Shown here piece by piece: positions 37,205 through 37,533 of a DNA stretch of 64,000 bases (position 1 is its first letter; each line of letters begins with the position of its first letter). A model generated the notes under the pieces. The model was given only the letters and a program-made list of their open reading frames with translations. It made no database searches and had not been told where the DNA came from. The DNA comes from Dyella halodurans (lineage in GTDB: Bacteria > Pseudomonadota > Gammaproteobacteria > Xanthomonadales > Rhodanobacteraceae): NCBI RefSeq assembly GCF_026283925.1, contig NZ_JAPDPF010000001.1, positions 1 through 64,000 of the forward strand, given 5' to 3'. Both the position numbers and the translations under genes were made by a program.

Positions 37205-37499
37205 GCTTAAGGCAACACTGATTAAGTCTCGCCGTCGTCACCGCCCCTGTCTGCCCGCAGATCGTTGGGGCGTCGGCGAAGGCAGACTGGCCGTCTGTCG
37301 AGCCGGCGGACCGGCGAGCTGGGGGCAGACAGGGGCGGCCCCTCATATGATTTCAAAGGTTTGGGTGATGCCTGGAAGGCCCGCAGACGAAGACGCGCGG
37401 CTTGGCAAGACGGCCAGTCTTCCCGGCGCCGCGCGCCTTCCCCTGCGAACCTTCCAGGCATCATGACGACGGCGAGACTTAATCAGTGTTGCCTTAAGC
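37205..37499. repeat. 295-bp palindromic element with 36-bp perfect terminal repeats and two 98-nt hairpin arms
   Basis: Outer repeats at 37205-37240 and 37464-37499 are perfectly complementary over 36 bp (core GGCAACACTGATTAAGTCTC). Between them lie two self-complementary arms, each exactly 98 nt: arm A 37241-37338 (basal stem of 16 perfect bp, 37241-37256 with 37323-37338) and arm B 37366-37463 (14 perfect bp, 37366-37379 with 37450-37463), separated by a 27-nt linker. The apical hairpins share GACTGGCCGTCT in opposite orientation, at the same offset (44) in each arm. The ends look like insertion-sequence ends, so a MITE is the simplest reading. No ORF of note. It fills the divergent intergenic region of the macro and MarR genes. 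Confidence 0.9.
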
Positions 37500-37533
37500 T
37501 TACACTTGGACAGCGCGGATCGACAGCACCCCT

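Follow-up and report, generated by a model that had tools for sequence, protein, structure and literature searches.

ERIC, Correia/NEMIS, RUP and QMITE-type elements, the structured MITEs, are organized along one hairpin axis, and the interior of a MITE is commonly, but not necessarily, derived from a parent IS. In REPINs, an inverted doublet of hairpins constitutes the replicative unit in extragenic space, with compensatory changes in the stems, as described in PMC3116915. Here, we analyzed a 64,000-nucleotide stretch of Dyella halodurans DNA (positions 1 to 64,000 of contig NZ_JAPDPF010000001.1; hereafter the window), in which an initial annotation had singled out a palindrome at positions 37205–37499 and proposed it to be a MITE with IS-like ends. 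The proposal is supported, and further copies, alike in ends, arms and target, exist in Dyella and Rhodanobacter.

Like the ERIC, Correia/NEMIS, RUP and QMITE-type elements, the element is small, palindromic and non-coding and can fold over its whole length (reviewed in PMC10969869). Unlike them, it is built of a long terminal stem and two equal side arms, and shows a strand-specific bias. With REPINs/BIMEs it shares the inverted extragenic hairpin doublet and the compensatory stem changes reported in PMC3116915, yet it has IS5-type ends, target copies and much longer hairpins. As in IS5-group MITEs, its terminal repeats follow the layout of IS5-group elements from the same order and genus, a YTAR-type target is present on both sides, and the element is intergenic and devoid of coding capacity. 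In contrast to such MITEs, its interior is not visibly a deleted IS, but an inverted pair of conserved 98-nt hairpins, and its intact target copies are exclusively self-complementary (37/37). The literature searched held no description of this element; within the searches made, the interior with its inverted pair of conserved hairpin modules is new.

Structure of the Palindrome and Its Insertion Site

The palindrome at 37205–37499 is real, and its 36-bp perfect inverted repeats were confirmed at 37205–37240 and 37464–37499. Between them lie arm A (37241–37338) and arm B (37366–37463), each closing on itself and each 98 nt long, separated by a 27-nt linker (37339–37365) at the symmetry centre. 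The motif GACTGGCCGTCT (37285–37296) and its reverse complement (37408–37419) occupy the same offset in their respective arms, 44 nt in from the outer arm edge. Folding with DNA parameters likewise returned the three-way junction that had been proposed, with a predicted energy of -134.4 kcal/mol against a mean of -61.4 kcal/mol (sd 4.3) for shuffled sequences (z -16.9), a value reached by 0 of 100 shuffles. No transposase gene is found inside the window copy, which spans 295 bp with two structured arms; the open reading frames listed across it are mechanical.

The element proper extends over about 37211–37493 and is thus narrower than the palindrome as first delimited. The TTAA on each side (37207–37210 and 37494–37497, YTAR-type) is most likely a duplicated target, as indicated by an empty site in a relative and by the end statistics, while the outermost GC of the palindrome is flanking DNA, palindromic by chance. 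This leaves a left terminal inverted repeat at 37211–37240 (plus strand) with the IS5-group layout GGnnnCnCTGA... (GGCAACACTGATTAAGTCTCGCCGTCGTCA) and a right one at 37464–37493 (minus strand). The flanking genes are divergent and encode a macro-domain protein (PF01661; 36648–37172, minus strand) and a MarR-family regulator (PF01047; 37534–37998, plus strand), both starting about 40 nt from the element. Among 24 relatives searched by marR, genome G014 carries the closest gene (94%), and its empty site reads ATGCTTCAGGTTACACTTGG, while the window copy's own site reads ATGCTTAA[element]TTAAGCTTACAC. Judged by this comparison, the window copy is a clean insertion between the macro and marR genes.

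To describe the ends, we anchored 120 elements (144 items minus 13 duplicates and 11 without clear ends), and in 117 of them the base adjoining one end is complementary to its partner at the other. TA is present on both sides in 63 elements, including 20 with TTAA/TTAA, 17 with CTAG/CTAG and 26 imperfect cases; intact CTAA/CTAA or TTAG/TTAG pairs were found in none of the 63. Target duplication of the YTAR type is therefore seen intact in 37/63 elements, in addition to the G014 empty site, although a 4-bp duplication is not fully separable from a 2-bp (TA) one because the targets are palindromic. In genome G023, CTAG flanks both sides of 19 of the 20 inspected copies, and the twentieth has CTAG/CTAA. 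As for the IS5-group elements sharing the end layout, the targets on their two sides were CTAA in three cases and TTAG and CTAG in one case each, with one further mismatched pair. Self-complementary intact targets are thus found in 37/37 MITEs vs 1/5 IS5 elements (Fisher p 4e-5). Either target choice differs between the two, or the stem is homogenized outwards after insertion, and TTAG/CTAG-like forms fit the latter.

Distribution and Variant Forms

The palindrome belongs to a large family of dispersed elements. Seven full copies are present in the window's own genome (blastn; 14 match rows, including self-complementary ones), and blastn matches occur in 17 of 41 genomes, the own one included, covering 5 of 20 genera. 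With a 28-nt arm-B pattern, we obtained 95 matches in 94 stretches of named genomes. Among the copies listed with a name, 75/80 belong to Dyella or Rhodanobacter, and the others come from Dokdonella, Mizugakiibacter, two Lysobacterales bins and one contig labelled Eremiobacteraeota. The latter (L088, Candidatus Eremiobacteraeota) carries a typical element and is possibly a misbinned contig. The pattern had no match in viral contigs, and plasmids gave no match either. The outer inverted repeat accompanies 80 of the 95 arm-B matches, that of L150 being only 11 nt long and probably spurious; several of the 15 matches devoid of it are positioned at the edge of the fetched DNA. An arm-B covariance model, for which no more than 10 candidates were scored in each genome, matched at least 120 of 398 genomes of the order and at least 39 of 98 genera, the matches outside family f1 being mostly weaker. 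G014, with no blastn match, has four matches to this model. Among the best 30 covariance-model loci, 28 had enough flank to be tested, and the outer repeat was present in all 28, including L320, whose span is only 168 nt.

The regular layout consists of an IS5-type terminal repeat of about 30 nt, the 98-nt arm A, a linker, the 98-nt arm B and the second terminal repeat. Arms of exactly 98 nt with a paired base were counted in 98/110 (A) and 107/110 (B) non-redundant copies. The linker varies between 8 and 32 nt and is mostly 9 or 28–30 nt long (97 copies with both arms of 98 nt). We extracted 64 elements and aligned the 45 with the standard layout; the 19 left out are longer forms, deletions, one-arm forms, the divergent G023 type and same-site duplicates.

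Several variants were observed. In the own genome, L002 (G000:C19:355137-355475) and L003 (G000:C2 near 69850-70200) contain a nested palindromic insert of about 45–48 nt with the core GAGGACATGGATGTCCTC, located at the identical place in both, close to the arm A apex. Another group of longer forms (L036, L048, L049 and L057; 354–365 nt) is devoid of this core, and its left arm after the end repeat starts with GTCCCACGGG, not GTCACC. One-arm or shortened forms include L060, L076 and L320. A shortened form reduced to palindromic end repeats was found at L304 (G003:C16), and shortened forms with hybrid or partial arms at L305 (G015:C32) and L306 (G005:C27); L304–L306 retain CTAG at both ends. 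In turn, L007, L113 and L314 represent different subfamilies at different points of seemingly one intergenic neighbourhood in different species.

The arm module is also found with other ends. A related arm B is combined with unrelated ends, GGGCGTGTCATCAATC, in G023 and with TAAGAGCCTGCTTACTATC in Dyella choica. The single-contig G023 genome contains 21 copies (L279–L298 and L030) of a 271-bp relative that are 97–100% identical and have another arm A. We found in it neither an IS bearing such ends nor two of these ends spaced as in an IS; its unpaired end matches at 2204005, 2006788 and 1704733 have no second end nearby, and its one distant IS5-like gene (34% identity) is without such ends. 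For the D. choica element (L134:2053-2316), a search of 336 loci returned its TAAGAGCCTGCTTACTATC ends in none of the other loci.

IS5-Group Ends and Candidate Partner Transposases

IS5-group partners whose gene is bracketed by the end motif were found in G012 (L253/L302) and at L250, L251, L254, L225 and L230. The G012 element, from the genus of the window copy, is an IS of 1153 bp (L302:1008-2160) with the ends GGATGCTCTGAACTAATCAC and GGATGCTCTGATTTATTCCC and TTAG on both sides. Its ends, GGATGCTCTGA..., are matched by the GGATGCTCTGATCTATTC subfamily of the element, through which terminal repeats are shared with an IS5-group IS. The window copy carries the GGCAACACTGA variant of the G012-type layout. 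No IS with exactly GGCAACACTGA ends was found; this end gave a few unpaired matches in other genomes. End patterns of 17 and 19 nt, searched in 24 relatives and the own genome, recovered mainly pairs that belong to the elements themselves, and an unpaired match at G012:C14 is the end of an IS5-group element.

The transposase encoded at L230 (P0001) was assigned to NF033581, IS5 family (E 9.7e-102), with relatives in 43 of 197 genomes of the family (E 1e-20). The end motif flanks the gene on both sides in 5 of 30 fetched loci with P0001 relatives, among which L250, L251, L253 and L254 are convincing and L256, with two matches about 240 bp apart, is not. No P0001-like IS5-group transposase was detected in the own genome at E 1e-20, nor in the element-rich G011 and G013, and the own genome yielded no DDE_Tnp_1 (PF01609), PF13358 or PF01797 gene; the mobilizer has therefore been lost or missed there. 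The arm model had no match in 33 loci carrying IS5-group genes, L302 included, and so the interior is not visibly inherited from these IS. An IS630/Tc1-mariner partner was ruled out, with PF13358 in none of the 17 same-genus genomes, including the own one.

The Arms as Inverted Paralogs and Their Strand Bias

The suggestion that two palindromic units had been joined was borne out in the form of inverted paralogs. Applied to arm A of the window copy (L001), the arm-B model scored 49.3 bits on the plus and 22.4 bits on the minus strand, and the plus strand likewise prevailed in L004–L007, while L002 and L003 gave no arm-A match. By these scores, arms A and B are homologous modules in inverted orientation. 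The pattern of changing sequence and conserved fold noticed in the initial annotation also holds across copies, with compensatory double changes in 72/105 pairs (RNAalifold, 45 copies). In each arm, conservation is 97% or higher at the unpaired T48, G49 and G50 (a TGG, or UGG, loop) and at A61; the arm-B pattern search biases the copies towards this motif for arm B but leaves arm A free of that bias. Together, the unpaired A61 of both arms and G38–A40 of arm A are retained at 93–99%. A loop–loop (kissing) interaction between the arms was considered and rejected, as the variable loop positions show no clear covariation when judged by eye, without a statistic; the complementarity of the loops follows from the inverted duplication of the arms.

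Wobble pairs distinguish the two strands. When the 45-copy alignment is folded on a single strand, GT and AC cells number 129 and 11 in arm A, with 45 of the GT cells being one invariant pair, and 15 and 52 in arm B. The 110-copy global alignment was gappy, and the strand test was rerun on ungapped 98-mers, where GU and AC in inward-strand pairs stand at 266:27 (A) and 358:25 (B). A fold computed on one strand enriches for wobbles there, so we turned to strand-neutral pairs, with which the bias was smaller but still present: 101:70 (A) and 163:114 (B) in cells, 19:6 and 18:10 in columns, and 69:29 and 89:41 in inferred events. The combined sign tests give p 0.006, arm B alone being weak (p 0.09); with pairs folding on both strands, the bias stays in arm A (16:4 columns) but not in arm B (9:8). 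No strand bias is seen in the terminal stem (GU 37, AC 45 cells). G-U wobbles thus prevail on the strand that runs inward from the respective end, i.e., the plus strand for arm A and the minus strand for arm B. The individual arm therefore appears to be the unit under constraint, rather than the junction as a whole. The idea that the three-way junction itself is selected is not supported, as each arm tolerates wobbles on its own, opposite strand.

Copies at Shared Sites and Gene Context

Four same-site sets were kept (L047/L052/L054, L028/L071, L032/L033 and L110/L115), and other apparent same-site pairs, which occupy different points of one neighbourhood, were dropped. The L110/L115 pair is 99.7% identical and uninformative. 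Double to single changes stand at 3:19 for L047/L054, 2:13 for L047/L052 and 0:21 for L052/L054; as a share of single plus double changes, doubles make up 3/22 in L047/L054, 4/17 in L028/L071 and 4/9 in L032/L033. In different-site pairs of similar identity (n=187), double changes account for 43–53%. The pooled comparison, 11/48 at shared sites vs 592/1289 in 83 different-site pairs of 84–92% identity, gives a Fisher p of 0.002, with pairs that are not independent. The insertion shared by L047, L052 and L054 has lost pairs, as well as six arm-B bases in one species, and the L032/L033 site alone shows no deficit of double changes. Compensation thus seems, from three sites only, to go with transposition more than with residence, and its rarity at sites shared between different species suggests a constraint acting during copying rather than in host regulation. 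As a separate observation, L032 (G008) and L033 (G006) occupy one site in two species in opposite orientation, and are 89% identical when flipped.

In 96 copies with called flanks, none is located inside a gene; for 15 of them, the overlap is limited to the 5' start of a gene called heuristically. With our home-made gene caller, 81 classified copies fall into 48 tandem, 21 divergent and 12 convergent gaps, close to the distribution of all gaps of at least 40 nt (199 tandem, 99 divergent and 80 convergent). The regulatory role and the outward promoter that had been suggested for the window copy were not supported, as the copies sit in the three gap types roughly as intergenic space does, and a sigma-70-type promoter scan of the window element returned no hit, although both named hexamers are present. 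At 37479–37506, TACACT comes from the older flank (also present in G014) and TTAATC from the element end. The terminator search gave one weak hit at 37331–37343 vs 0.4 expected, and Rfam searches of the window stretch and L002–L007 returned only hits far below gathering scores, mostly to microRNA families.

Discussion

That the element is a MITE is well supported. The probable reading is a non-autonomous MITE of the IS5 group whose arms are constrained modules that aid its own copying or survival. By comparison, its ends have the IS5-group layout, with YTAR-type targets on both sides that are predominantly the self-complementary CTAG or TTAA, and a putative IS5-group transposase would act on them in trans. 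Between the ends lie two inverted copies of one 98-nt hairpin module, an arrangement that is borne out statistically and whose cause we infer; owing to the inverted orientation, the first module met from either end has the same orientation. The module is constrained in length, pairing, apical loop and bulged bases, and its most likely working form is a single-stranded hairpin made of the inward strand, either ssDNA or RNA. It would help the element's own copying or survival, and apparently not the surrounding genes.

The main rival, considerably less probable, is an ordinary IS5 MITE whose paired changes have no function and arise by palindrome correction: a hairpin or cruciform forms at replication and one arm templates the other (quasi-palindrome correction). 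Consistent with it, double transversions approach double transitions in frequency, making up 59/127 (A), 50/128 (B) and 41/102 (terminal stem) of double changes, and the mismatched intermediates that selection alone would need are often absent. The terminal stem, without strand bias, is matched up to the adjoining target base in 117/120 copies, which correction would also explain. Yet, correction should erase internal loops, and the bulged A61 and G38–A40 are kept; nor would it account for a wobble tolerance that is strand-specific and opposite in the two arms, and correction in resident copies would not predict the few compensated changes in the L047/L052/L054 trio.

Spread as a REPIN-like inverted hairpin doublet, mobilized through ssDNA by a REP-associated Y1 transposase (RAYT), is very improbable. 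The doublet, its extragenic location, the strand-specific hairpins and the compensatory changes resemble what PMC3116915 describes, and among 16 genomes of the genus searched, 9 carry a Y1-family gene (PF01797). Yet PF01797 is missing from the own genome, G011 and G013, all element-rich, no arm was found in 26 loci around PF01797 genes, the terminal repeats are long and of the IS5 layout, CTAG/TTAA targets flank the element at either end, and the arms measure 98 nt, not 20–40 bp. Slightly less improbable, but still unlikely, is a regulatory RNA or bidirectional terminator serving the adjoining genes. The hairpins are stable, their G-U bias would fit RNA folding, and the window copy sits in a divergent promoter region. 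Against this stand the gap composition near the intergenic background, which argues against a terminator or 3'-end role, the single weak terminator-like hit with no sigma-70-like one, the lack of Rfam matches near gathering score, and same-site copies that tend towards losing pairs instead of compensating.

The occurrence of related arms with other ends, and the amplification to 21 copies in G023, which has no recognizable IS of its own for them, raise the tentative possibility that the 98-nt module itself is a persistent selfish unit, needed in copying as an inward-read single strand and joined to different transposon ends.

The element family offers a natural experiment for asking why hairpins persist in the small mobile DNAs of bacteria. 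In more than 100 diverged copies, arm length is nearly fixed at 98 nt, unpaired bases are conserved and the two arms show opposite strand preferences. These copies make it testable whether selection acts on structure (of ssDNA or RNA) in the course of transposition itself or whether palindrome correction yields the structure as a by-product, and they offer a way of tracing how non-autonomous elements change their ends.
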